From a virus, in the IMG/VR virus record IMGVR_UViG_3300024262_006558, positions 248,001 through 312,000 of that record: a stretch of 64,000 nt of DNA; one strand, written 5' to 3'. Under the pieces are notes generated by a model that saw only the letters and a list, made by a program, of their open reading frames with translations, did no database searches and was not told the origin of the DNA. A program made the position numbers and the translations under genes. Each line of letters opens with the position of its first letter. The stretch's first letter is position 1. This document shows, piece after piece, positions 16,539-47,672 of this stretch.

Positions 16539-16570
16539 TTTGCATACTACTATGGAAACTAACATGCTTG

Positions 16571-16671
16571 TGGGGGCGGAATAGATTCGAACTATCGACA
16601 CACTGGCTTTCACACCGAGCTGCTCTCAAGATCACGCCTCAAGGACGGATACCAAACTGAGCTACACCCCC
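16571..16671 (-). tRNA. tRNA-like gene 1 with extended D-arm/anticodon region
   Basis: On the minus strand, the acceptor arms GGGGGTG/CGCCCCC pair fully (one T-G), GCTC...GAGC can form a D-stem, and the T-arm GATAG-TTCGAAT-CTATT is canonical. At 101 nt it is too long. An extra hairpin with loop CTTGA lies between the conserved D-loop GGT and AGAGC, and no regular 5-bp anticodon stem with a 7-nt loop can be formed at the normal place. GTGTGAA would be the best anticodon loop (GTG), but its flanks do not pair. CCA is not encoded. It may be an unusual tRNA, a tRNA with a small insertion, or a tRNA mimic. Confidence 0.55.
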
Positions 16672-16677
16672 ATATAG

Positions 16678-16696
16678 AAAAAGCAAATTGCTTTTT
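16678..16696. terminator. AT-rich hairpin
   Basis: AAAAAGCAA/TTGCTTTTT inverted repeat between tRNA-like genes 1 and 2; could terminate in either direction or act in processing. Confidence 0.5.
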
Positions 16697-16697
16697 G

Positions 16698-16797
16698 TGG
16701 GAACGGAATAGATTCGAACTATCGACACACTGGCTTTCACACCGAGCTGCTCTCAAGACTAACATCAAGTGTTAGCACCAGACTGAGCTACATTCCC
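16698..16797 (-). tRNA. tRNA-like gene 2
   Basis: Acceptor GGGAATG/CGTTCCC, the same T-arm and the same 3' two-thirds as gene 1. The extra hairpin here is CTAACA/TGTTAG around the same CTTGA loop: different bases, same pairing, that is compensatory change relative to gene 1, which supports a real RNA structure. Confidence 0.58.
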
Positions 16798-16892
16798 ATG
16801 TAGTTAAAGATATAAAGGAAATTTGGAGAACTTGTTTTTTAATTTAAGATAATTTTTTAGAAGGAAGTCCAAGCATAGCCTTTAATCTTTTG

Positions 16893-16992
16893 TGGGAACG
16901 GAATAGATTCGAACTATCGACACACTGGCTTTCACACCGAGCTGCTCTCAAGACTAACATCAAGTGTTAGCACCAGACTGAGCTACATTCCC
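16893..16992 (-). tRNA. tRNA-like gene 3 (duplicate of gene 2)
   Basis: Identical in sequence to gene 2 across the 100 nt, and the flank TTTTGTG is also shared, so it is a recent duplication. It is the first of the three downstream of the minus-strand promoter at 17099-17129. Confidence 0.58.
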
Positions 16993-17098
16993 ATATGTAA
17001 TAGGGGCTTATTTCGGATTTCATTCCGAGATAGATTCCCATATTAAGATTGTTGTTAAGAAGAAACCCTCTTGGTATCTTTATCCCTTATCAACAATA

Positions 17099-21845: not shown

Positions 21846-21872
21846 GAAACAAAATTCATTTTATTTCGTTAA
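21846..21872 (+). promoter_or_regulatory. P2 element, copy b
   Basis: GAAACA (21846-21851), 12 nt, TTTCGTTAA (21864-21872); 26 nt before ATG 21899. Likely also transcribes the large structured RNA. Confidence 0.62.
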
Positions 21873-21898: not shown

Positions 21899-22219
21899 AT
21901 GACAAAAAAAGAAAAAGAAAACTTAGCATTTATTTTGTTTGAATCTCATCCTGAGATGGCAACTATGAATGTGCTAAATAATTACCCAGACATAAAGAAA
22001 GCCTATAACAAACTAAAGGAACAAAGCAATAAAAAAGAATCCTCTTATGAAGCTGAAACCCAGAAGATGAAAGAAAACTATATGAATATAGGTAAAAAGT
22101 ATTCAGGTAGATTATTCTTTGGAGACTCTATGAGGTTTGATGTAGATGGAGACGGAAAAGAAAAAGCAGATAAAGATTGGCAAAAATTATATGGGACAAA
22201 ATATCCCACAAGCATTTAA
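21899..22219 (+). CDS. charged hypothetical protein
   Basis: 106 residues, lysine/glutamate-rich and helical. The end has the short pattern RFDVDGDGKEKADKDW, reminiscent of a Ca-binding DxDGDG loop. It is directly followed by the structured RNA (2 nt after the stop), so both could come from one transcript. Function unknown. Confidence 0.65.
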   Translation: MTKKEKENLAFILFESHPEMATMNVLNNYPDIKKAYNKLKEQSNKKESSYEAETQKMKENYMNIGKKYSGRLFFGDSMRFDVDGDGKEKADKDWQKLYGTKYPTSI

Positions 22220-22220
22220 G

Positions 22221-22674
22221 TAATTGTAGGTTAGCAATAAATAAACGCGGAGCATTAAGGAAGGTACAACTTAATGAAAAGCTGAGGTCGGCGAATCAGC
22301 TGTTAACTTACATTTAAGGCTAAACATTGATCCATTGTGGGGCTACTCTTAATTGAGTACTAGTTTTCACATAAAGATACCAGTCGAAATACTGGATGTG
22401 TTGTTCCATGTGAGAAAGGAATGTTAGAGAGGTAACTTCTGGAAACGGACATAACACCTACAACACAAATGAGCAAGTATCCGTGAGGACTCGGACTGCA
22501 ATCCTAGTTAAAGCTAACATGCTTATAGTATGTTACTATACTAGCTTTCGACAGTTTCTCAGCAAGTAGTTGAAGGATAATCGGAGTAAAACTAGAAATA
22601 GATAATAGTCCGACTAAGAATAAACTACGTGACCGTACCAAGTAATGTTGACGGTGCTAAATAAATATAACTAC
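22221..22674 (+). ncRNA. large structured non-coding RNA (about 450 nt)
   Basis: No ORF, and a high density of complementary segments. The ends close on each other: GTAG 22226-22229 with CTAC 22671-22674, and TTAGC 22231-22235 with GCTAA 22656-22660. Internal hairpins: CATTAAG/CTTAATG (22253/22270), AGCTGA/TCAGCT (22280/22296), TACTC/GAGTA (22344/22355), TTTTCACAT with ATGTGAGAAA (22364/22408) enclosing CCAGT/ACTGG (22380/22391), AACATGC/GTATGTT (22516/22528), ACCGT/ACGGT (22632/22651). The size, closed ends and phage-like setting recall the ornate classes GOLLD and ROOL; I see no RNase P or tmRNA signature. Family membership is not established. Confidence 0.7.
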
Positions 22675-22677
22675 ATT

Positions 22678-22704
22678 GAAACATTTACTAAATTATTTCG
22701 TTAA
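22678..22704 (+). promoter_or_regulatory. P2 element, copy c
   Basis: GAAACA (22678-22683), 12 nt, TTTCGTTAA (22696-22704); 17 nt before ATG 22722 and right behind the structured RNA. Confidence 0.62.
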
Positions 22705-22721
22705 CTAAAATAAAAAACATT

Positions 22722-23195
22722 ATGACTAAATCAAAAAACTCTACTGAAGTAGCAAAGGCATCTTTAACTTTAACTCAAGCTGATGTGCCTGCTCAAATAG
22801 ACCTGCTGAAAAAACAACTACAAGAAATCCAAGGAGACGGAAAAACAAAAATCTCTACCGATGTCTCCTATAAAGGTAGTAAAATCAACAAAGTCTCTAC
22901 AGTAAAAGAACTGTTAGAAATATCAGCTTCAATACATGCTAGAGCTAAAGCATTTGAAGAAGAAACCGCCAGATATAAAATGGAAGGTAAATTAGATAAA
23001 TTCCAAACAGAAGGACACACTCCAGAACAATGGAAACTTATTATAGAAAAAGCAATCTTTGATAAAGTGAACAGTGTGCAAATAAGTAATATTAAAAAAG
23101 CTATCTCTGAACTAGAAGAATTCCTTAGCGATGAAGCTAAACTACAAAACAAACTGTCGCAAATTGTCAATATGGCTAACCAAAAAATAGCATAA
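22722..23195 (+). CDS. coiled-coil hypothetical protein
   Basis: 157 residues, nearly all helical: heptad-like stretches at residues about 20-40 (VPAQIDLLKKQLQEIQ) and 120-150 (AISELEEFLSDEAKLQNKL). No catalytic motif. Likely a structural or scaffolding protein. Own P2 promoter and terminator. Confidence 0.72.
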   Translation: MTKSKNSTEVAKASLTLTQADVPAQIDLLKKQLQEIQGDGKTKISTDVSYKGSKINKVSTVKELLEISASIHARAKAFEEETARYKMEGKLDKFQTEGHTPEQWKLIIEKAIFDKVNSVQISNIKKAISELEEFLSDEAKLQNKLSQIVNMANQKIA

Positions 23196-23200
23196 CATAA

Positions 23201-23231
23201 AAGAGCCTTTCAATAGGCTCTTTTTTTTTAC
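23201..23231 (+). terminator. intrinsic terminator
   Basis: AAAAGAGCCT/AGGCTCTTTT stem and an 8-T tail. Confidence 0.93.
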
Positions 23232-23241
23232 TCTCTCTACT

Positions 23242-23448
23242 ATGAAAAAAGAAATCTTGTTTGAACTTAATCGCTTTGGTGATAGAAAATATTATCTTGA
23301 TGATGAACTCCATAGAGAAGATGGCCCAGCCGTTGAATATTCTAATGGAGATAAAGAGTGGCGCCTGAATGGTAAAGAATTAACCGAAGAAGAGTTTAAT
23401 AAGAAGATAACCGAATTGAATGTGTCTAAAATACACGAGCTATGGTAA
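23242..23448 (+). CDS. DGPA-repeat (MORN-like) protein 1 of tandem array
   Basis: 68 residues with one HREDGPAVEYSNGDK unit and the conserved tail NGKELTEEEFNKKITELN...HELW. The unit W-[YF]-L-N-G-K-x-H-R-x-D-G-P-A-[VI]-E-x-x-x-G-x-K resembles MORN_2-type repeats found in YwqK-like antitoxins and viral proteins. Its stop overlaps the next ATG by 7 nt. No P1 or P2 precedes the array. Confidence 0.72.
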   Translation: MKKEILFELNRFGDRKYYLDDELHREDGPAVEYSNGDKEWRLNGKELTEEEFNKKITELNVSKIHELW

Positions 23449-23855
23449 AGCAAGAACCTATATGTAAAACAACTGCCTATGGAGATAAGCATTGGTATCT
23501 CAATGGAAAGCAACATCGTGAAGATGGTCCAGCCGTTGAATGGGCTGATGGAACTAAATTCTGGTACCTCAATGGAAAACGCCATAGAGAAGATGGCCCA
23601 GCCGTTGAATATGCATATGGAACTAAAGCTTGGTGGATTAATGGAGAACTACATAGATTAGGAGGACCATCAGTCACTGATGAAGATGGTAAGTTCTGGT
23701 ACCTCAATGGAAAACGCCATAGAGAAGATGGTCCAGCCGTTGAATATAACGATGGAACTAAAGAATGGTTTCTTAATGGTAAAAAATTAACCGAAGAAGA
23801 GTTTAATAAGAAGATAACCGAATTGAATGTGTCTAAAATACATGAGCTATGGTAG
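23442..23855 (+). CDS. DGPA-repeat protein 2 of tandem array
   Basis: 137 residues: MVKQEPICKTT head, four repeat units (the third degenerate, LHRLGGPSVTDEDG), then the common HELW tail. Starts inside the previous stop region (ATGGTAA). Confidence 0.75.
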   Translation: MVKQEPICKTTAYGDKHWYLNGKQHREDGPAVEWADGTKFWYLNGKRHREDGPAVEYAYGTKAWWINGELHRLGGPSVTDEDGKFWYLNGKRHREDGPAVEYNDGTKEWFLNGKKLTEEEFNKKITELNVSKIHELW

Positions 23856-24127
23856 AACAGGAACCTATATGTAAAACAACTTCCGATGGAACTAAAAACT
23901 GGTTTCTGAATGGAAAGCATCATCGTGAAGATGGGCCAGCCGTTGAATATACTAATGGAGATAATCACTGGTTCCTTCATGGAAAACGCCATAGAGAAGA
24001 TGGTCCAGCTGTTGAATTAGCAGGTGGATATAAATATTGGTTCCTTCATGGTAAAGAATTAACCGAAGAAGAATTTAATAAGAAGATAACCGAATTGAAT
24101 GTGTCTAAAATACATGAGCTATGGTAG
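23849..24127 (+). CDS. DGPA-repeat protein 3 of tandem array
   Basis: 92 residues, head MVEQEPICKTTSDG, two units (HHREDGPAVEYTNG, RHREDGPAVELAGG) and the common tail. 7-nt overlaps on both sides. Confidence 0.75.
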   Translation: MVEQEPICKTTSDGTKNWFLNGKHHREDGPAVEYTNGDNHWFLHGKRHREDGPAVELAGGYKYWFLHGKELTEEEFNKKITELNVSKIHELW

Positions 24128-24399
24128 AACAGGAACCTATATGTAAAACAACTTCCGATGGAGATAAATGTTGGTACCTGAATGGAAAAAGGCATAGAGA
24201 AGATGGTCCAGCTATTGAATATGCCGATGGAGACAAAGAATGGTGCCTGAATGGAAAACGCCATAGAGAAGATGGTCCAGCTGTTGAATTAGCAGGTGGA
24301 TATAAATATTGGTTCCTTCATGGTAAAGAATTAACCAAAAAAGAGTTTAATAAAAAGATCTCCGAATTGAATGTGTCTAAAATACACGAGCTATGGTAG
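24121..24399 (+). CDS. DGPA-repeat protein 4 of tandem array
   Basis: 92 residues, two units; the second unit and tail are almost identical to protein 3, showing a recent duplication. The tail reads ELTKKEFNKKISELN. Confidence 0.75.
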   Translation: MVEQEPICKTTSDGDKCWYLNGKRHREDGPAIEYADGDKEWCLNGKRHREDGPAVELAGGYKYWFLHGKELTKKEFNKKISELNVSKIHELW

Positions 24400-24671
24400 A
24401 ACAGGAACCTATATGTAAAACAACTGCCGATGGAGATAAGCATTGGTATCTGAATGGAAAGCATCATCGTGAAGATGGTCCAGCTATTGAAAGGGTTAAT
24501 GGATCTAAATACTGGTATCTGAATGGAAAGCATCATCGTGAAGATGGTCCAGCTATTGAATATGCCAATGGAGATAAATACTGGTTTCTCAATGGTAAAG
24601 AATTAACCGAAGAAGAATTTAATAAGAAGATAACCGAATTGAATGTGTCTAAAATACACGAGCTATGGTAG
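24393..24671 (+). CDS. DGPA-repeat protein 5 of tandem array
   Basis: 92 residues, two units beginning HHREDGPAIE; same length as proteins 3 and 4. 7-nt overlaps on both sides. Confidence 0.75.
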   Translation: MVEQEPICKTTADGDKHWYLNGKHHREDGPAIERVNGSKYWYLNGKHHREDGPAIEYANGDKYWFLNGKELTEEEFNKKITELNVSKIHELW

Positions 24672-25009
24672 AACAGGAACCTATATGTAGATTATTTCCA
24701 GATGGAACTAAACAATGGTACCTAAATAGAAAGCTTCATCGTGAAGATGGGCCAGCCGTTGAATATACTAATGGAGATAAATGTTGGTTTATTAATGATA
24801 AACTTCATAGATTAGATGGCCCAGCTGTGGAGTCTATTGGAGATAAGCAATGGTGTTTAAATGGAAAAAGACATCGTGAAGATGGCCCAGCTGTTGAATG
24901 TTCTGATGGAGATAAATTTTGGTTTCTTAATGGTAAAAAATTAACCGAAGAAAAATACAATGAAGAGATCGCTAAATTGAATGCATCTAAAATACATGAG
25001 TTATGGTAG
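24665..25009 (+). CDS. DGPA-repeat protein 6 of tandem array
   Basis: 114 residues, three units; the head diverges (MVEQEPICRLFPDG) and one unit is shortened (LHRLDGPAVESIGD). The tail NGKKLTEEKYNEEIAKLN is also the most divergent. Confidence 0.74.
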   Translation: MVEQEPICRLFPDGTKQWYLNRKLHREDGPAVEYTNGDKCWFINDKLHRLDGPAVESIGDKQWCLNGKRHREDGPAVECSDGDKFWFLNGKKLTEEKYNEEIAKLNASKIHELW

Positions 25010-25488
25010 AACAAGAACCTATATGTAAAACATGTTCCAATGGAGATAAAGAATGGTATCTCAATGGAAAACTACATAGAGTAGATGAGCCAGCTATTGA
25101 ATCTGCCAATGGACATAAACTATGGTATCTCAATGGAAAGCAACATCGTGAAGATGGTCCAGCTTGTGAATATGCCAATGGAGATAAATCTTGGTACCTG
25201 AATGGAGAAAGGCATAGAGAAGATGGTCCAGCTATTGAATCTGCCAATGGAGATAAATCTTGGTTCCTTCATGGAAAACGCCATAGAGAAGATGGTCCAG
25301 CTATTGAATCTGCCAATGGACATAAACTATGGTATCTCAATGGAAAAAGGCATAGAGTAGATGGTCCAGCCTGTGAATGGAGCAATGGAGACAAAGAATG
25401 GTTCCTTCATGGGAAAGAGTTAAGCGAAGAAGAATTTAATAAGAAGATCTCCGAATTGAATGCATCTAAAATACACGAGCTATGGTAA
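25003..25488 (+). CDS. DGPA-repeat protein 7 (last) of tandem array
   Basis: 161 residues, five units, the first with DEPA replacing DGPA. After its stop the sequence still reads ATGGTAA, a leftover start like those used between the other members, but no further member follows. Confidence 0.75.
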   Translation: MVEQEPICKTCSNGDKEWYLNGKLHRVDEPAIESANGHKLWYLNGKQHREDGPACEYANGDKSWYLNGERHREDGPAIESANGDKSWFLHGKRHREDGPAIESANGHKLWYLNGKRHRVDGPACEWSNGDKEWFLHGKELSEEEFNKKISELNASKIHELW

Positions 25489-25516
25489 AAAGCTGAAAAG
25501 TTAACTTTCCTAAAAA

Positions 25517-25552
25517 GTACATAATTTCCCTGATGTTGTATATATTGGTGAA
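25517..25552 (+). promoter_or_regulatory. P1 element with extended upstream block (last full copy)
   Basis: The spacer has only CCC (TTCCCTGATGTT); preceded by AAGCTGAAAAGTTAACTTTC; 15 nt before ATG 25568. Confidence 0.76.
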
Positions 25553-25567
25553 TTTAGAATATAGATT

Positions 25568-25864
25568 ATGAAAAAAAGATATACATTAGCAAAGCAGGCA
25601 AAAGTTGGAGAGACATGCACATGTCCAAGTTGCGGCACTCAGTTCGAGAAAACCAATTACCAACAAGCTTTCTGTAAATCTAAAGGCGGAACTATATGTA
25701 AAGATAAGTATTGGAATACAGTAACTCCAAACAAAAGAAATAACACTACAAGAATTTCGCCAGCGTCAGCAAGATGGATGGCTCAACAAGCCCAGGAAAG
25801 AGAAGACTTTGACCCTTATGACATGGAGCATCCATTTAGCTCGGAAGCTCTGGGACAATGGTAA
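25568..25864 (+). CDS. small zinc-finger-like protein
   Basis: 98 residues. CPSC (about residues 20-23) and two later cysteines (AFCKSKGGTICKDKYW) form a likely zinc-binding site. The pattern CxxC, FEKTNYQQAFC, then CKDKYWN is familiar from phage-encoded zinc proteins of unknown role. Last plus-strand gene before the convergent junction. Confidence 0.7.
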   Translation: MKKRYTLAKQAKVGETCTCPSCGTQFEKTNYQQAFCKSKGGTICKDKYWNTVTPNKRNNTTRISPASARWMAQQAQEREDFDPYDMEHPFSSEALGQW

Positions 25865-25924
25865 ACAAAAACTTCGGAATCACTACCATTCAACGCCTAG
25901 CGCTTAGCGGACGTAGATTCTAAG

Positions 25925-25999
25925 CTGGGCATGTGAATGATGTAGCGAAGCGGAATCATTCACGTAACGCGTAGCGTTACTTTGATTAATTATGCCCAG
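25925..25999. other. branched inverted-repeat structure
   Basis: CTGGGCAT (25925-25932) pairs with ATGCCCAG (25992-25999). Inside are GTGAATGAT/ATCATTCAC and the palindrome GTAACGCGTAGCGTTAC, giving a two-hairpin branched fold. It could be an RNA element at the 3' end of the left arm or a DNA structure such as an origin or recombination site. Confidence 0.45.
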
Positions 26000-26005
26000 G
26001 CAATA

Positions 26006-26029
26006 ACCGACCAGGTCGGTAATCTTTTT
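26006..26029 (+). terminator. intrinsic terminator
   Basis: ACCGACC/GGTCGGT stem followed by AATCTTTTTA; likely ends the plus-strand transcript. Confidence 0.7.
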
Positions 26030-26042
26030 AACTCATCATATA

Positions 26043-26077
26043 ATTAAATGTACGACATGGTATGTCGTACATTTAAT
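26043..26077. repeat. perfect 16-bp inverted repeat
   Basis: ATTAAATGTACGACAT, 3-nt loop GGT, then the exact complement. Strong hairpin or cruciform with no T-tail of its own. Confidence 0.75.
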
Positions 26078-26107
26078 AGAGCAGCAACATTATAATTTGC
26101 AACCCAA

Positions 26108-26138
26108 TCTCTGAGAATTTCCGCAAGTTCGTAAACCT
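26108..26138 (+). repeat. TTTCCGCAA interspersed repeat, copy 6
   Basis: TCTCTGAGAATTTCCGCAAG then TTCGTAAACC. Confidence 0.78.
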
Positions 26139-26262
26139 AACCCCTTAGCTATGTTAATGAATTTATGCCTGCGGGAATGTGGAGGAATTTTTGCTGGTTT
26201 GTAACAAAGCAGAAAAATGACGACACAAGACTAAAGGCATAAAGAAAAGACATAGCAGCTTG

Positions 26263-26282
26263 GTCCTGATCTGGATCAGGAC
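26263..26282. repeat. inverted repeat
   Basis: GTCCTGATC, TG, GATCAGGAC: a perfect 9-bp stem within the non-coding junction. Confidence 0.6.
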
Positions 26283-26330
26283 AATAACTAGACCTATAAA
26301 AAACTCTTAGCAGCACTCCCATCTTTTTAT

Positions 26331-26376
26331 ATTTGTTATCCTCGATAACAAATAGCATTATCCCGACTAGGTCGGG
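26331..26376. repeat. two adjacent inverted repeats
   Basis: ATTTGTTATC-CTC-GATAACAAAT (26331-26353) and CCCGAC-TAG-GTCGGG (26362-26376). The second shares the GTCGG arm with the terminator at 26006. Confidence 0.6.
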
Positions 26377-26430
26377 TTTAAATAAACTTCCTAAGAGAAA
26401 GCAACGCTTTCGAAGAATACCTACACTGAC

Positions 26431-26461
26431 CCTCTGAAAATTTCCGCAAACTCGTAAACGA
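26431..26461 (+). repeat. TTTCCGCAA interspersed repeat, copy 7
   Basis: CCTCTGAAAA then TTTCCGCAAACTCGTAAACG. Copies 7-9 lie within 160 bp of one another. Confidence 0.78.
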
Positions 26462-26498
26462 TTAACCCGCCACAATCCCCCACTTACCCCCACCCTAC

Positions 26499-26530
26499 TC
26501 TCTGAAAATTTCCGCAAACTCGTAAACGAT
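26499..26530 (+). repeat. TTTCCGCAA interspersed repeat, copy 8
   Basis: TCTCTGAAAA then TTTCCGCAAACTCGTAAACG, the same core as copy 7, 68 bp further on. Confidence 0.78.
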
Positions 26531-26556
26531 AAAACATACCAGTAACAACCAACGTT

Positions 26557-26587
26557 TCTCGTAGAATTTCCGCACTTTCGTAAACGC
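26557..26587 (+). repeat. TTTCCGCAA interspersed repeat, copy 9
   Basis: TCTCGTAGAA then TTTCCGCACTTTCGTAAACG. Confidence 0.74.
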
Positions 26588-26632
26588 TATGCAGACACAA
26601 CTCTACATATAAATTTTTTACTTAAAAATAAA

Positions 26633-26672
26633 GTACATAATATCCCCAACAAAATAGAGATTATTTCGTTTA
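26633..26672 (+). promoter_or_regulatory. half P1 fused to P2 element, copy d
   Basis: GTACATAATATCCCC (26633-26647) is the left half of a P1. It runs directly into AACA (26648-26651), 12 nt and TTTCGTTTA (26664-26672), a P2. A structured RNA starts 7 nt later. Confidence 0.55.
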
Positions 26673-26678
26673 TTAAGT

Positions 26679-26770
26679 ATAGGGAGTTTGGACAAGAACA
26701 GACGCCGCCTTTTAACACGAGAACAAAGGCGGATCCAATAAACAAAAAAGGAGCTTGTCCCCTACCCTAT
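26679..26770 (+). ncRNA. candidate structured small RNA
   Basis: Three nested helices: ATAGGG (26679-26684) with CCCTAT (26765-26770), GGACAAG (26690-26696) with CTTGTCC (26754-26760), and CCGCCTTT (26705-26712) with AAAGGCGG (26725-26732). It starts just after P2 copy d and has no ORF. About 92 nt; function unknown. Confidence 0.6.
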
Positions 26771-26968
26771 TAAAACATTATGTATACACGCCCAACCGCA
26801 TACCCGCTTACGCGATTATACGGACAGGATTATACAGCCTAAAAAAAAAATTCTCATTATTGTAAATTATAAGTTTGATTATTGTCGCATTTAATCACAC
26901 TTGACTAGGAGTTAACGCAGTGAGAAAAAATTTGGCCCCCTTAATGGAGTGCCGAGCGGCTTCAGTTA

Positions 26969-26992
26969 GAGATGTTCCACGTGGAACATCTC
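26969..26992. promoter_or_regulatory. parS-like ParB-binding palindrome
   Basis: GAGATGTTCCAC followed by GTGGAACATCTC, a perfect 24-bp palindrome. Its centre TGTTCCACGTGGAACA closely matches the 16-bp parS consensus (TGTTNCACGTGAAACA) bound by ParB. No parA or parB gene is in the window, so it may use the host ParB or one encoded elsewhere. Confidence 0.65.
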
Positions 26993-27014
26993 GCTAAAGT
27001 CTAAGAATTTTAAA

Positions 27015-27031
27015 GTTTCCACTTTGGAAAC
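27015..27031. repeat. inverted repeat
   Basis: GTTTCCA-CTT-TGGAAAC, 24 bp after the parS-like site. Confidence 0.5.
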
Positions 27032-27109
27032 CTGGGTTTTAAAGTTTTTTCGTTGGTTGAAAAACCATGAGGATTTCTGGTGGAAAATCTTGGGCAAATT
27101 GAGTCGCTT

Positions 27110-27800
27110 TTCTAGAACGCCCCCAGCCCACAAAATGTACTTTTACTCTCCTTCCCTCCAAAAAAACCAATTTTACCTCTTAAAAACCTTTTTTACACCA
27201 AACATACCGCCTAAGTCTCCCCCTAATATAAGCCATTCTAAGCCCCTATAATCTCCCTATTAATACATCATTAATAAGTCTTAAAAACCTCTCTAAAAAC
27301 CTCTTATATATGCACCTATTAACACGTCTATATACTGGGTTAAATCGGGTTAAAAAGTACTCTATTTCTTCATGTGAATAACCTACTCTTTTTACACACA
27401 TATTCACACATATTTTTACATACTTCCTCTCCCTAATTTGGACCTCTCCCTGTGTGGTAAAAAGCGATCAGATTTAGGGCATAAAACCGATGTTAAAAAA
27501 GGGGTTTTGGCGACCCCTTTTTACCATAGAATAACTACCATAATTAATGGCGTAAAAACCTCTAATAACCCTATCCTTTTACTGGGTGTGAAAACGCTCA
27601 AATCACACCTCTCCCTGCCCTATATAATACACCACAATAAACAGCCTATTAATAAGTCATTTTAAGCTCTTCTAAGCGACTCGATTATACATCTGGGGTA
27701 ATGAGTTATTATCTACATAAAAACGTTATTATACATGCTTATATCTAACCTCTCCCTATTCGTAGATTTAAGTCATATACAATTTTGTTGGGGTTTATTT
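27110..27800. other. gene-free AT-rich stretch with a G-poor plus strand
   Basis: The plus strand is almost devoid of G between about 27110 and 27345. Short repeats occur: TTAATAAGTC-type (27268, 27648) and CTCTCCCT (27427, 27443, 27609, 27750). Two ORFs of 75 codons here have low-complexity, compositionally odd translations, and I do not accept them as genes. Candidate replication, packaging or transcription-stop region. Confidence 0.4.
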
Positions 27801-27848
27801 GTAAGTAATATTTTTTATTAATATTTATTCATGTAACCCTTAATCAGA

Positions 27849-28101
27849 GGGGGGTTTAGGAAGCTTCAACATAGTTGAATGAAGACTACACTTTTAAACT
27901 ACGTTCCTCAATAGCACGGGTACTAATTACGAAGCATCTCTATAATACTTGGAGGTTCAATGCTAAGTCTGTTTCTATTTTTTCCAAAGGGGGTTGTTGA
28001 TGGGGCAGAGCCTAAACTCAATCGTACTGACTTGACTGACAGCAAGACGAAGGTTAATAAAACAATTCTCAAATCTCTTTCTAACGAAGGGGGTTTGGGG
28101 G
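27849..28101 (+). other. gene-free stretch with four G-tracts
   Basis: G6 at 27849 and G5 at 27989, 28089 and 28097, each followed by TT (GGGGGTTG/GGGGGTTT). The last two could form a two-tier or higher G-quadruplex. No ORF was seen. Confidence 0.4.
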
Positions 28102-28181
28102 TTGTTGTTTAAGACCTACCTCTTCTCACCAGCCTTACTTCCAGCAAATAATTTACTGTCTACAATAGGCATGTATATTAC

Positions 28182-28886
28182 TTATATAGTTCTCCTAGTA
28201 ATTTTGTAGTCTAGTTCACCTCTAAGTTTCTTCTGTTGGAATTCTTGTCTCTTCAAGTAATCTAATATAAAATCCTTAGTAGGGTCTGAAACATATCCTT
28301 CATTAACTAGACGCCAAGGAGATTGGTTATGTACATTTCTTATATACATATCCGCTCCAGCATCGAGTAGAGCTTTAATCATATCCAGTGAAGCTCTTCG
28401 TTCTAGCGCGGCATACAATACGGTCCAGGAAGATGGTGTTGATTGGTAGTTAGGATCTACTCCTAATTCCAACAACAGCTTTAGAGCTTTGGGGGAATTC
28501 TGAGTTGCGGCTTGTACAATTGGAGGGGCCCATTGTTTAGCAATACACCTATGTATATCTACTCCTATTCCGTGTAGGTATTTGATACAATCTACCGAAT
28601 CATAAACGGAGCATATTATAATTAAGCTTCTACTATCTTTGTCTAATTCATCTCTATGAATAGCTCCTACGTATATTAGTTTTTTAAGCGCTAGTGGTTT
28701 ATCGTCTCTAATACATTGTACAGCTATCTCCATAAAATCTATATCTGTTTTGAAGTCTTTGAAGAATTCATTGGACAGGAACTGGAAAGATAGATAGTAG
28801 TCTGACCAATTTATTTGGTCGGCATGTTCTATGAGCCACTCTTCTGTTTTTATAAAATTTCTTTGAGGTATTTCACTTAAGTACAT
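28182..28886 (-). CDS. ankyrin-repeat protein with 'ADxxxW' N-terminal module
   Basis: 234 residues. The N-terminal module EEWLIEHADQINWSDYY...FSNEFFKDFK (residues about 15-50) is shared with many neighbours. Several ankyrin repeats follow (ALKLLLELGVDPNYQ, MIKALLDAGADMYIRN). Ankyrin repeats mediate protein binding. The start overlaps the upstream stop by 10 nt. Last gene of the minus-strand array before the junction. Confidence 0.78.
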   Translation of the reverse strand: MYLSEIPQRNFIKTEEWLIEHADQINWSDYYLSFQFLSNEFFKDFKTDIDFMEIAVQCIRDDKPLALKKLIYVGAIHRDELDKDSRSLIIICSVYDSVDCIKYLHGIGVDIHRCIAKQWAPPIVQAATQNSPKALKLLLELGVDPNYQSTPSSWTVLYAALERRASLDMIKALLDAGADMYIRNVHNQSPWRLVNEGYVSDPTKDFILDYLKRQEFQQKKLRGELDYKITRRTI

Positions 28887-29563
28887 AAAACTTTTTCTTT
28901 AAATTCTTCTTCTCTATGCCTTTCTCCATTCAGATACCAAGATTTATCTCCATTGGCACATTCAATAGCTGGACCATCTTCACGATGTTTTTCTCCATTC
29001 AGATACCAAGATTTATCTCCATTGGCACATTCAATAGCTGGACCATCTTCACGATGTTTTTCTCCATTCAGATACCAAGATTTAGATCCATTGGCATATT
29101 CAACGGCTGGACCATCTACTCTATGTCTTTCTCCATTCAGATACCATTCTTTTTGTCCATCGGCATATTCAACGGCTGGACCATCTACTCTATGTCTTTC
29201 TCCATTCAGATACCAATATTTAGATCCATCGGCATATTCAATGGCTGGACCATCTACTCTATGTCTTTCTCCATTGAGATACCAATATTTAGATCCATCG
29301 CTCCATTCAACGGCGGGTCCATCTTCTCTATGCCTTTCTCCATTAAAAAACCAATACTTATCTCCATCGGCATGTTCAATAGCTGGACCATCTTCTCTAT
29401 GCCTTTTTCCATTCAGGTACCAGTTAGTTATTTCATACTTAAACATATCTCCGAATTCTTTGGAGAAGATATCGGAATGGTATTCGAATTTATCCCAATC
29501 AATAGAGTCGGCATGTTCAATGCACCACTTTTCTCCTTTATCTATGTAATCATTGGCGATCAT
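28877..29563 (-). CDS. DGPA-repeat protein with N-terminal ADxxxW module
   Basis: 228 residues: N-terminal module (EKWCIEHADSIDWDKFEYHS, FSKEFGDMFKYEI) then seven full units and one partial. Consecutive units are nearly identical at DNA level, so copy number may vary by recombination. Overlaps its neighbours by 10 and 14 nt. Confidence 0.78.
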   Translation of the reverse strand: MIANDYIDKGEKWCIEHADSIDWDKFEYHSDIFSKEFGDMFKYEITNWYLNGKRHREDGPAIEHADGDKYWFFNGERHREDGPAVEWSDGSKYWYLNGERHRVDGPAIEYADGSKYWYLNGERHRVDGPAVEYADGQKEWYLNGERHRVDGPAVEYANGSKSWYLNGEKHREDGPAIECANGDKSWYLNGEKHREDGPAIECANGDKSWYLNGERHREEEFKEKVLCT

Positions 29564-30215
29564 TGTATTTTTTTTCGGTTAATTCTTTTCCATTGAGATA
29601 CCATGATTTATCTCCATCGGCATATTCAATAGCTGGACCATCTTCTCTATGCCTTTTTCCATTGAGATACCATGATTTATCTCCATCGGCATATTCAATA
29701 GCTGGACCATCTTCTCTATGTAGATTTCCATTGAAATACCACTCTTTATGTCCATTGGCCCATTCAACGGCTGGCCCATCTAATCTATGCCTTTCTCCAT
29801 TAATCCACCATTCTTTATGTCCATTGGCAGATTCAATAGCTGGACCATCTTCACGATGATGCTTTCCATTCAGAAACCATTCTTTATATCCATTGACATA
29901 TTCAATAGCTGGTCCATCTAATCTATGCCTTTCTCCATTAATCCACCATTCTTTATGTCCATTGGCATATTCACAAGCTGGACCATCTACTCTATGCCTT
30001 TTTCCATTCAGGTACCATTCTTTGTCTCCATTGACTAATTCAACAGCTGGACCATTTTCTCTATGTAGTTCTCCTTTGGAGTTTTTCCATACAAACCTTA
30101 TAATTTCATATTTAAAGGTTTCAAAGAAATCTTTAGAGTAATAATTCATATCGCATTGGAATGAGTTCCAGTCGAATGAGTCGGCGTGCTTTATGATATA
30201 TTCTTCTGTTTGCAT
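29550..30215 (-). CDS. DGPA-repeat protein with N-terminal ADxxxW module
   Basis: 221 residues; module EEYIIKHADSFDWNSFQCDM...FFETFKYEI, then seven repeat units, ending NGKELTEKKYNDRQ, the same tail type as the plus-strand array. Overlaps the next gene by 14 nt. Confidence 0.78.
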   Translation of the reverse strand: MQTEEYIIKHADSFDWNSFQCDMNYYSKDFFETFKYEIIRFVWKNSKGELHRENGPAVELVNGDKEWYLNGKRHRVDGPACEYANGHKEWWINGERHRLDGPAIEYVNGYKEWFLNGKHHREDGPAIESANGHKEWWINGERHRLDGPAVEWANGHKEWYFNGNLHREDGPAIEYADGDKSWYLNGKRHREDGPAIEYADGDKSWYLNGKELTEKKYNDRQ

Positions 30216-30841
30216 TGAGTTCTTTGTTTAAAGTCTTCTTCGGTTACTCGTTTACCATTGAGATACCAGTGTTTAGATCCATTGTATTTAATTACAGCTG
30301 GTCCATCTTCTCTATGAAGTTCATCATTGATATACCAAAAATTATCTCCATTGGCATATTCACAGGCTGGACCATCTTCTCTATGTAGTTTTCCATTCAG
30401 GTACCAAAAATTATCTCCATTGGATTTAATTACAGCTGGCTCATCTACTCTATGCCTTTTCCCATTCAGATACCATTCTTTGTCTCCATCGCTCCATTCA
30501 CAGGCTGGACCATCTACTCTATGCCTTTTCCCATTCAGATACCATTCTTTGTCTCCATCGGCATATTCACAGGCTGGACCATCTACTCTATGCCTTTTTC
30601 CATTAATAAACCAATGCTTATCTCCATCGGCATATTCAATAGCTGGCCCATCTACCCTATGACATTTACCATTCAGATACCAATGTTTAATTTCACTTTT
30701 AAACTGTACAGCAAAGTCTGTTGAGAACTTATCTGCATGGTATTCGAATTTATCCCAATCAATCTTATCGGCATTATTAATACACCATTCTTCTCCTAGT
30801 ATAGTATAGTCTTCTGCATTAATATTATCCTGTGTATTCAT
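30191..30841 (-). CDS. DGPA-repeat protein with N-terminal ADxxxW module
   Basis: 216 residues; module GEEWCINNADKIDWDKFEYH, then six units, one with DEPA and two with the variant AVIK in place of AVEY. The C-terminus overlaps the next gene by 25 nt. Confidence 0.77.
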   Translation of the reverse strand: MNTQDNINAEDYTILGEEWCINNADKIDWDKFEYHADKFSTDFAVQFKSEIKHWYLNGKCHRVDGPAIEYADGDKHWFINGKRHRVDGPACEYADGDKEWYLNGKRHRVDGPACEWSDGDKEWYLNGKRHRVDEPAVIKSNGDNFWYLNGKLHREDGPACEYANGDNFWYINDELHREDGPAVIKYNGSKHWYLNGKRVTEEDFKQRTQCKQKNIS

Positions 30842-30886
30842 TATATTCTCTATAGTAGTTGAAGTGTTATTCTCCTATGTAATATA

Positions 30887-31648
30887 TTAATTATCTATAG
30901 TTGAAGTTGTGTTTTCTAATTGGGGTTCTCCATGAATGTGCCAACGTTTATGTCCATCGACATATTCAACAGATGGACCATCTTCACGATGTCTTTTTCC
31001 ATTTAGCCACCAGGATTTAGTTCCATTGGCAGATTCAATGGCTGGACCATCTACTCTATGTCTTTCTCCATTGAGATACCAAGCTTTATCTCCATCGGCA
31101 TATTCAATGGCTGGACCATCTACTCTATGTCTTTCTCCATTGAGATACCAGTGATTATCTCCATTAGTATATTCAACGGCTGGCCCATCTTCACGATGTT
31201 TTTCTCCATTCAGATACCAAGCTTTATGTCCATCGCTCCATTCAACGGCGGGTCCATCTTCACGATGTTTTTCTCCATTCAGATACCAAGCTTTATCTCC
31301 ATCAGAACATTCAACGGCGGGTCCATCTAATCTATGCCTTTCTCCATTAAGAAACCATTCTTTATATCCATTGGCCCATTCAACGGCTGGCCCATCTTCT
31401 CTATGTCTTTCTCCATTCAGATACCATTCTTCATCTCCATCGCTCCATTCAACGGCGGGTCCATCTTCTCTATGAAGCTTTCCATTCAGATACCAGTTAG
31501 TTATTTCATATCTAAACATTTCACCGAATTCTTTGGAGAAGATATCGGCATGATATTCAAATACATCCCAATCAATATTATCTGCATTAGCGATACACCA
31601 TTTTTCTCCTTTAGTTATATGGAAATTGTTTTCTAAGTTAATAGCCAT
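30887..31648 (-). CDS. DGPA-repeat protein with N-terminal ADxxxW module
   Basis: 253 residues; module GEKWCIANADNIDWDVFEYH, then eight units, the most in the window. The terminal unit has DGPS, and the C-terminus lacks the LTEEEF tail. Confidence 0.78.
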   Translation of the reverse strand: MAINLENNFHITKGEKWCIANADNIDWDVFEYHADIFSKEFGEMFRYEITNWYLNGKLHREDGPAVEWSDGDEEWYLNGERHREDGPAVEWANGYKEWFLNGERHRLDGPAVECSDGDKAWYLNGEKHREDGPAVEWSDGHKAWYLNGEKHREDGPAVEYTNGDNHWYLNGERHRVDGPAIEYADGDKAWYLNGERHRVDGPAIESANGTKSWWLNGKRHREDGPSVEYVDGHKRWHIHGEPQLENTTSTIDN

Positions 31649-31651
31649 AAT

Positions 31652-32374
31652 CTATTTTGTATTTTCTATATCATCTAGATTATCTATGGTTACGGTTATT
31701 TCTCTAAAGACTCTTTTGTTACTATAGTTAGTTTCTCTGGTTTCCAGTATTCTAGCGCTTGGATATTTACTGGTTAGTAATTTAGAAAGTGCTTCGAAGT
31801 TTTTATCTGATGCTATTGTTTGGTTATCATCATTAAAAGACAGGCCGACTTTTTCCAGGTCTACTTTCTTTTCTTCTATGGTCTTACCTTTATCTCTATA
31901 CGGATCGCATAGCATACCTGAAAGGGTAAGGTTTATTCTACCTGATTGTCCAATGGAGAATTCCTTTATATGTCCTAGTCCTTCTAAGTTCCACCACATC
32001 CAGATATCATCATAGATATTCTTTATTCTTTCTCTAGCGTCTTCGTTGGTTACTTTGTTGCCCAGTTGTTTTCTAAGATCCCTGTTCTCGATGTTCAGGG
32101 ATCTTATCTCTGAGTATCGTTCTTTATTTTGTTGGTCTAGTACCCCTTCATAACCTAAAGTCTTCTGTAATTCTAGAACATAGTGTTCCGAAAGGGATAA
32201 CTGAGTTGCTTTCATTCCTTCAGTAAGTTTACCCGCTTTCAGTTGAGAGTGAAGATGTCCTATGTTAAATTTAATGTCATTATAGGATTTCTCTATAGCT
32301 TTTAGAAGATCTCCTTTGGGATCTTCTACAAGCGTTGTGTCTTCTTTATCAAATGTTAATTGTCTATCTTTCAT
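31652..32374 (-). CDS. hypothetical protein with coiled coil
   Basis: 240 residues; a central coiled-coil region (YSEIRSLNIENRDLRKQLGN, residues about 87-106) and a C-terminal alpha/beta domain (VFREITVTIDNLDD). It sits between DGPA-repeat genes and overlaps the upstream one by 11 nt. Not recognised. Confidence 0.68.
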   Translation of the reverse strand: MKDRQLTFDKEDTTLVEDPKGDLLKAIEKSYNDIKFNIGHLHSQLKAGKLTEGMKATQLSLSEHYVLELQKTLGYEGVLDQQNKERYSEIRSLNIENRDLRKQLGNKVTNEDARERIKNIYDDIWMWWNLEGLGHIKEFSIGQSGRINLTLSGMLCDPYRDKGKTIEEKKVDLEKVGLSFNDDNQTIASDKNFEALSKLLTSKYPSARILETRETNYSNKRVFREITVTIDNLDDIENTK

Positions 32375-32894
32375 TATATTTTTCTTCGGTTAATTGTTTA
32401 CCATTCAGATACCACTCTTTATTTCCATCGGCATTTTCAATAGCTGGACCATCTAATCTATGCCTTTCTCCGTTGAGATACCAATATTTAGATCCATTGG
32501 CAGATTCAACAGCTGGGCCATCTAATCTATGACATTTACCATTGATATACCAATATTTAGATCCATCGTTCCATTCAATAGCTGGCTCATCTACTCTATG
32601 CTTCTTTCCATTCAGGTACCAGTATTTATCTCCATTGTCCAATTCCATAGCTGGGCCATCTAATCTATGACATTTACCATTGATATACCAGTATTTAGAT
32701 CCATTGTCAGATTCAATAGCTGGACCATCTACTCTATGGAATTTACCATCTGGGTTTTTACAAACATAAACTAGTATTTCATCTTTAAAGTCATCGGCAA
32801 ATTCCTTTGAATAGGTATTCATATCGCATTGGAATGAGTCCCAATCGAAAGAGTCGGCGTGCTTTATGATATATTCTTCTGAATACTTTTCCAT
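32364..32894 (-). CDS. DGPA-repeat protein with N-terminal ADxxxW module
   Basis: 176 residues; module EEYIIKHADSFDWDSFQCDM, nearly identical to that of the gene at 29550, then five units and the LTEEKYNER tail. Confidence 0.77.
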   Translation of the reverse strand: MEKYSEEYIIKHADSFDWDSFQCDMNTYSKEFADDFKDEILVYVCKNPDGKFHRVDGPAIESDNGSKYWYINGKCHRLDGPAMELDNGDKYWYLNGKKHRVDEPAIEWNDGSKYWYINGKCHRLDGPAVESANGSKYWYLNGERHRLDGPAIENADGNKEWYLNGKQLTEEKYNER

Positions 32895-32902
32895 GAATAA
32901 AT

Positions 32903-47386: not shown

Positions 47387-47531
47387 CAGAGAAGATAGGC
47401 CTCGAACCTACAAGGATTTAAAGAAATAATCTCCAACTATTCACGTTTATAGTTTGTCCACCGAGTTCCCCCACTCTATACGTTTCTTCAAGGGTACTGT
47501 CAGCGTGGTTGCCAAATTTCACCACTTCTCT
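47387..47531 (-). tRNA. tRNA-like gene 4 (Leu-type framework) with large insertion
   Basis: Acceptor AGAGAAG/CTTCTCT pairs perfectly, the D-arm GGTGAAATTTGGCAACCAC is like bacterial tRNA-Leu, and the T-arm GTAGG-TTCGAGG-CCTAT is canonical. The length is 145 nt. The region between D- and T-arms is about twice that of a normal long-variable-arm tRNA and contains the hairpin AACTAT/ATAGTT. No clean anticodon stem is visible. CCA is not encoded. Confidence 0.55.
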
Positions 47532-47538
47532 ATTTTTG

Positions 47539-47672
47539 CGTTCTCGGCAGGACTCGAACCTGCAACCCCCTGTTTGGAAATGTAGAAGGAAGACTTGAAC
47601 ATAGCCAATGGTCTTAGGTAATTGTCATGTCTAAACGATAGACAGGTGCTCTACCAGTTGAGCTACGAGAAC
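47539..47672 (-). tRNA. tRNA-like gene 5 with insertion in the anticodon arm
   Basis: Acceptor GTTCTCG/CGAGAAC, D-arm GCTC-AACTGGTA-GAGC and T-arm GCAGG-TTCGAGT-CCTGC are all perfect. A 5-bp anticodon stem CCTGT/ACAGG is present, but its loop is 67 nt in place of 7. The insertion folds on its own (TGTCTA/TAGACA, AAGAC/GTCTT). Removing about 60 nt would leave a normal tRNA, so a small intron-like insertion is the simplest reading. Confidence 0.6.

Follow-up and report, generated by a model that had tools for sequence, protein, structure and literature searches.

A candidate orphan structured RNA in a long ORF-free gap of a jumbo phage genome

A stretch of about 450 nucleotides lying between two co-directional genes of a large phage genome may encode, on its + strand, an orphan structured RNA of ~400-450 nt that would be phage-encoded and co-transcribed with the preceding gene for a 106-aa protein, a reading that we favour tentatively and to which we give slightly less than an even chance. 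It is favoured because the region forms a GC island, carries an excess of GNRA tetraloops and contains two strong local domains; what we propose below for the structure and function of this RNA may be taken as a plausible guess. The window referred to here is the whole stretch of DNA that was analysed, 64 kb in length, corresponding to positions 248001-312000 of a virus record 388,594 bases long (IMGVR_UViG_3300024262_006558, a 389-kb genome), and positions are those of the window unless genome coordinates are given. The locus is made up of the following elements:

21864..21870, + strand: TTTCGTT motif, probable promoter for the 106-aa gene, with read-through into the RNA (upstream enrichment)
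21899..22219, + strand: orphan ORF of 106 aa, ending directly before the candidate RNA
22221..22674, + strand: candidate structured noncoding RNA (ORF-free, GC island, GNRA hairpins, no Rfam match)
22245-22650, + strand: GC-rich core of the candidate RNA (GC 0.389)
22696..22702, + strand: second TTTCGTT motif, directly before the next gene
22722..23195, + strand: orphan ORF of 157 aa, 3′ of the candidate RNA (coiled-coil-like matches only)
23199..23224, + strand: intrinsic terminator closing the transcription unit (10-pair stem and T run)

The large terminase of the phage is T4-like, and the closest named terminases, at ~31% identity, belong to a 484-kb uncultured phage and to Flavobacterium and Microcystis phages. 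Since its terminase is of this type and has these nearest relatives, the record is, on that basis, a jumbo tailed phage, and the same neighbours suggest that its host is possibly a member of the Bacteroidota.

The initial annotation had described the region as free of ORFs, and this is borne out: no ORF of at least 60 aa occurs in the 502-nt gap at 22220-22721, the longest partial frame being 46 aa. Such long gaps are rare in this phage, where the present one ranks among the longest ORF-free gaps of the 389-kb genome, and the others of this length are mostly occupied by tRNA or tRNA-like genes, by a CRISPR array or by the presumed replication origin (a noncoding GC-skew switch at 26-28 kb). 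Six-frame translations of the gap matched no family in Pfam or PHROGs and nothing in the rest of the phage genome, and a recognisable decayed protein gene at 22220-22721 is therefore unlikely. The base composition sets the region apart from its surroundings, with a GC content of 0.389 in the core at 22245-22650 against 0.339 in the genome and 0.31-0.33 in the flanking genes, and the borders of this island are sharp (0.23 in 22220-22245 and 0.21 in 22650-22721). In an AT-rich genome, a long intergenic region that is rich in GC is a recognised predictor of structured and bacterial noncoding RNAs (PMC8632094), and the segment 22245-22650 is a region of this kind.

Several other features of this genome were seen along the way. 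A tRNA whose anticodon loop is longer by ~61 nt lies at 47539-47672 on the - strand (Rfam tRNA model, 55.6 bits; missed by ARAGORN), and what looks like another long tRNA-like sequence adjoins it at ~47388-47535. Three tandem tRNA-like genes at 16568-16995 (- strand), apparently tRNA-Phe(GAA) with an extra D-arm hairpin, were missed by ARAGORN and Rfam alike, and a tRNA array at genome 373.6-376.7 kb (L021:13617-16738) includes 119- and 130-nt tRNAs with inserts. The phage also carries a CRISPR array of ~14 repeats (GTTGTGATTTCCTTTCAAAATAATGGTATACATACT) with a period of 66 at genome 377.0-377.9 kb (L021:17043-17945), in which one spacer resembles the phage's promoter-like motif and another is present twice; inspection by eye of the phage ORFs of at least 420 aa revealed no recognisable Cas protein. 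An anti-repeat to this CRISPR repeat was considered within the candidate RNA; the similarity is of 8 nt only (GAAAGGAA, by eye) and was judged to be due to chance. The probable replication origin is a 2.3-kb, mostly noncoding segment at 25865-28181 with repeats ctctgaaaatttccgcaaactcgtaaacg, at which both the GC skew and the direction of the genes change over, and a large gene family with WYLNGKRHREDGPAVE-type repeats extends on both sides of it (23240-32900). Finally, small ORFs at genome 119.6-122.4 kb (L010/L011) and 86.2-86.9 kb (L009) are situated between imperfect inverted repeats of the TAAC...GTTA kind, an arrangement that recalls integron attC cassettes.

The candidate RNA and its two orphan neighbours, the 106-aa and 157-aa ORFs, would form one transcription unit. 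Neither ORF has a relative or matches a family above the cut-off. The TTTCGTT motif upstream of the first gene is a probable promoter, as suggested, rather than proven, by its enrichment upstream of ORFs: in 90-nt upstream segments genome-wide it occurs 8 times where 1.2 are expected (~7-fold), and TTCGTTA occurs 9 times where 1.0 is expected (~9-fold). For the candidate RNA, neither a convincing promoter of its own nor a terminator at its 3′ end was found, and a hairpin, UAUGGGA/UCCCACA, is present at the end of the 106-aa gene. Note also that further promoter-like motifs exist upstream of genes across the genome, namely AAGTACATAATATCCCC-N-CCGTATATATTGGTGAATC (about 22 sites at least) and CTATTTATAA (~40 sites), and that at 26664-26775 (+ strand) TTTCGTT precedes, instead of an ORF, a short sequence that can fold into a hairpin (tagggagtttggacaag...cttgtcccctaccct), possibly a small RNA.

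Within the region, the following hairpins and domains are predicted, all on the + strand:

22253..22276, + strand: 7-bp hairpin CATTAAG/CTTAATG around GAAGGTACAA (MFE, centroid and sequence)
22280..22301, + strand: 6-bp hairpin AGCTGA/TCAGCT around GGTCGGCGAA (inverted repeat)
22380..22395, + strand: 5-bp hairpin CCAGT/ACTGG around CGAAAT (centroid; stem found)
22429..22449, + strand: two adjoining GNRA hairpins, GAG-GUAA-CUU and UCUG-GAAA-CGGA (tetraloop scan)
22480..22489, + strand: GNRA hairpin UCC-GUGA-GGA (tetraloop scan)
22503..22552, + strand: strong local hairpin with 7-bp arms, AAAGCUA/UAGCUUU and UAUAGUA/UACUAUA
22560..22630, + strand: strong local domain, GUAGUU/AACUAC around UCGGA/UCCGA and CUA-GAAA-UAG
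22632..22655, + strand: 3′ hairpin ACCGU/ACGGU (sequence)

One sign of structure is the number of GNRA tetraloops closed by at least three pairs, of which the + strand holds five against 0.92 in shuffled sequences (p 0.003, an optimistic value, as the test was picked after seeing the sequence) and the reverse strand one; of 1,496 genome windows, 0.4% hold as many as the + strand. The local folding of the segments 22503-22552 and 22560-22630 gives z values of -2.77 and -3.91 against shuffles, both inflated by the choice of these windows from the fold itself; the MFE variant of the former pairs CUAGU with ACUAG. Other elements compete for partners. GCTGAG of the 22280-22301 hairpin can pair over a long range with CTCAGC near 22560, the option that the MFE favours, TTTTCACAT has two partners, and the hairpin at 22632-22655 is paired in the reverse-strand MFE and only partly in that of the + strand. 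Pairing between the two ends of the region, as put forward in the initial annotation, is possible over 5 bp (UGUAG 22225-22229 with CUACA 22671-22675), and the MFE closes there; the closed ends are nevertheless not secure in these predictions, because the 5′ arm has a better rival partner over 8 bp (TTGTAGGT 22224-22231 with ACCTACAA 22456-22463).

The same annotation had counted at least eight helices, many of them perfect over 5-9 bp. Perfect or near-perfect complementary segments of this length are indeed present (CATTAAG/CTTAATG, AGCTGA/TCAGCT, TTGTAGGT/ACCTACAA and TGTGTTGT/ACAACACA), but neither their number nor their stability exceeds chance. The region as a whole folds with z values of -1.6 to -1.8 on the + strand and -1.8 to -2.3 on the - strand, so that relative to shuffles the reverse strand folds as well as the + strand, and 24% of random 454-nt windows of the phage genome (n=100; mean z -1.0, sd 1.4) are as low as the candidate. 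For helices 6 bp or longer within 80 nt, the count is 9, compared with 6.0±2.4 in shuffles (p 0.15). As z is thus ordinary for windows of this genome and the helix count is not significant, eight helices of 5-9 bp are roughly the chance yield for a sequence of such size and composition. Genuine structured RNAs treated by the same method gave z values of -0.5 (core of the T4 td intron), -1.4 (nrdB), -1.6 (E. coli tmRNA), -3.0 (RNase P) and -5.3 (nrdD), and because true RNAs span this whole range, folding energy neither confirms nor refutes a large RNA at 22221-22674.

Homologues of the candidate RNA were sought in several collections. By blastn, none was found among plasmids or in 25 terminase-related records, and a match among phages, of 31 nt in coding genes of an Erwinia phage, was judged to be chance; no second copy was found in the phage's own genome. 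Exact patterns from four segments were compared with 2.9 million viral contigs and one exact DNA pattern with genome contigs, and in both cases the matches ended at the seed, these patterns being of 15-18 bases, so that many diverged homologues would escape them. When the 3′ domain was turned into a covariance model built from its single sequence (R2), 38 records yielded only the domain itself (best other E 0.45), and a search for relatives through both flanking proteins gave none. The terminase-guided search led to a nearest relative that is 45% identical, on a 20.6-kb contig, and, on a 66-kb contig that does not contain the candidate RNA, to a terminase identical to that of the phage. Because short exact patterns miss many diverged homologues, the lack of homologues is weak evidence against the RNA.

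Nearly as likely as an orphan structured RNA, in our view, is a long spacer or 3′ UTR that has no function as an RNA (a gene too decayed to be recognised would also belong here) and whose helices would be chance complementarity. Such a sequence would be expected to look as the region does in its global z and helix count, which are ordinary for the phage genome, in its competing pairings, in the equal folding of both strands and in its want of homologues. It would leave unexplained why the GC island has sharp edges, why one strand is enriched in GNRA loops, why none of the six frames shows any protein trace and why so long a gap is present in a genome where long gaps are rare. We consider it improbable that the region is a cis-acting regulatory element (an attenuator, a structured leader or a 3′ stabiliser) that regulates the 106-aa and 157-aa genes. 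The position between co-directional genes and 3′ of a promoter motif, a terminator placed only after the second gene, and the UAUGGGA/UCCCACA hairpin at the end of the first gene are all consistent with this role; 450 nt is long for such elements, though, and the second TTTCGTT between the RNA and the 157-aa gene means that read-through is not needed.

Two further explanations involve known kinds of RNA. A degenerate or divergent self-splicing intron, or another known ribozyme, is very improbable: a weak S-like string, AGATAATAGTCC, and its possible P7-like pairing with CGGACUG speak for it, yet the group I intron model RF00028, which recognises the P3-P8 catalytic core, is silent throughout the phage genome at E≤10 and picks up three introns of T4 (positive control) at E about 1e-8 or better, no other Rfam ribozyme matches at E≤10, no acceptable P3/P4 was seen by inspection, and no gene is interrupted. 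The least probable explanation, with hardly any weight, is a cluster of insert-bearing tRNA-like genes as found elsewhere in this phage; its tRNAs with long inserts that ARAGORN missed lend some colour to the idea, against which the candidate gave no tRNA-model match at E≤10 and lacks the T-arm consensus.

Returning to the orphan structured RNA, we propose that the TTTCGTT-type promoter at 21864 would drive its transcription along with that of the 106-aa ORF, and that the RNA would either stay as a long structured 3′ region of the 106-aa mRNA or be cut out of it. Separate hairpin domains would then form, those at 22503-22552 and 22560-22630 being the best supported, and several GNRA loops would be available for tertiary or intermolecular docking. 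The molecule might serve during infection as an RNA scaffold or decoy, acting as RNA and without a peptide. That it represents a new class of large structured phage RNA, seen in one jumbo phage, whose GNRA loops could mediate tertiary contacts or self-assembly, is a bolder proposal, which we consider rather unlikely. The candidate is at present a single orphan, of practical interest as a target of RNA-seq and of further metagenome searches.

Comparison with known families began from the initial annotation, which had proposed an Rfam search, had recognised no RNase P, tmRNA or intron core, and had likened the region to GOLLD and ROOL RNAs. In the Rfam 15 search no family matched at the candidate RNA, either at the gathering cut-off or at E≤10; the single match at E≤10, of 12 bits to a vertebrate lncRNA model, fell in the upstream ORF and is attributed to chance. 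The likeness to GOLLD and ROOL found no covariance-model match and comes down to size class and phage setting alone, so that, with the family tests that were run giving no match, the comparison would serve as a lead only. Group I introns (RF00028) share with the candidate a similar size class and a short J8/7-P7-like string; they interrupt a gene or tRNA, whereas the candidate is flanked by complete, unrelated ORFs, of which the second has a motif and an ATG of its own. GOLLD (RF02032), present in the scanned library, gave no match at E≤10 and is absent also from six distant relatives. Like the candidate it is large, noncoding and phage-encoded; GOLLD RNAs measure several hundred nt, many of them more than 800 nt (PMC12286853), and the candidate at most ~450 nt in a gap of 502 nt. 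GOLLD also has a conserved 3′ domain, and no conserved domain was found in the candidate. The ROOL model (RF03087, 574 positions) had no match in the whole phage record, a negative that carries little weight by itself, since the control genomes were silent as well, but with which the Rfam scan agrees. The ROOL fold is ornate, with pseudoknots and support from covariation. ROOL RNAs are frequently, not universally, located near tRNA islands (PMC12286853); the main tRNA array of this phage is ~103-106 kb away from the candidate, and three tRNA-like genes lie 5.2-5.7 kb upstream of it. ROOL differs in that the candidate is unrelated to it in sequence and has no conserved family, and shares with it an origin in phages or prophages, a length of hundreds of nt, freedom from ORFs and many predicted helices. 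ROOL and GOLLD are large phage RNAs that were recently found to be RNA-only cages of unknown function (PMC12286853), and another independent class in another phage lineage would help to show whether phages build with large RNAs.
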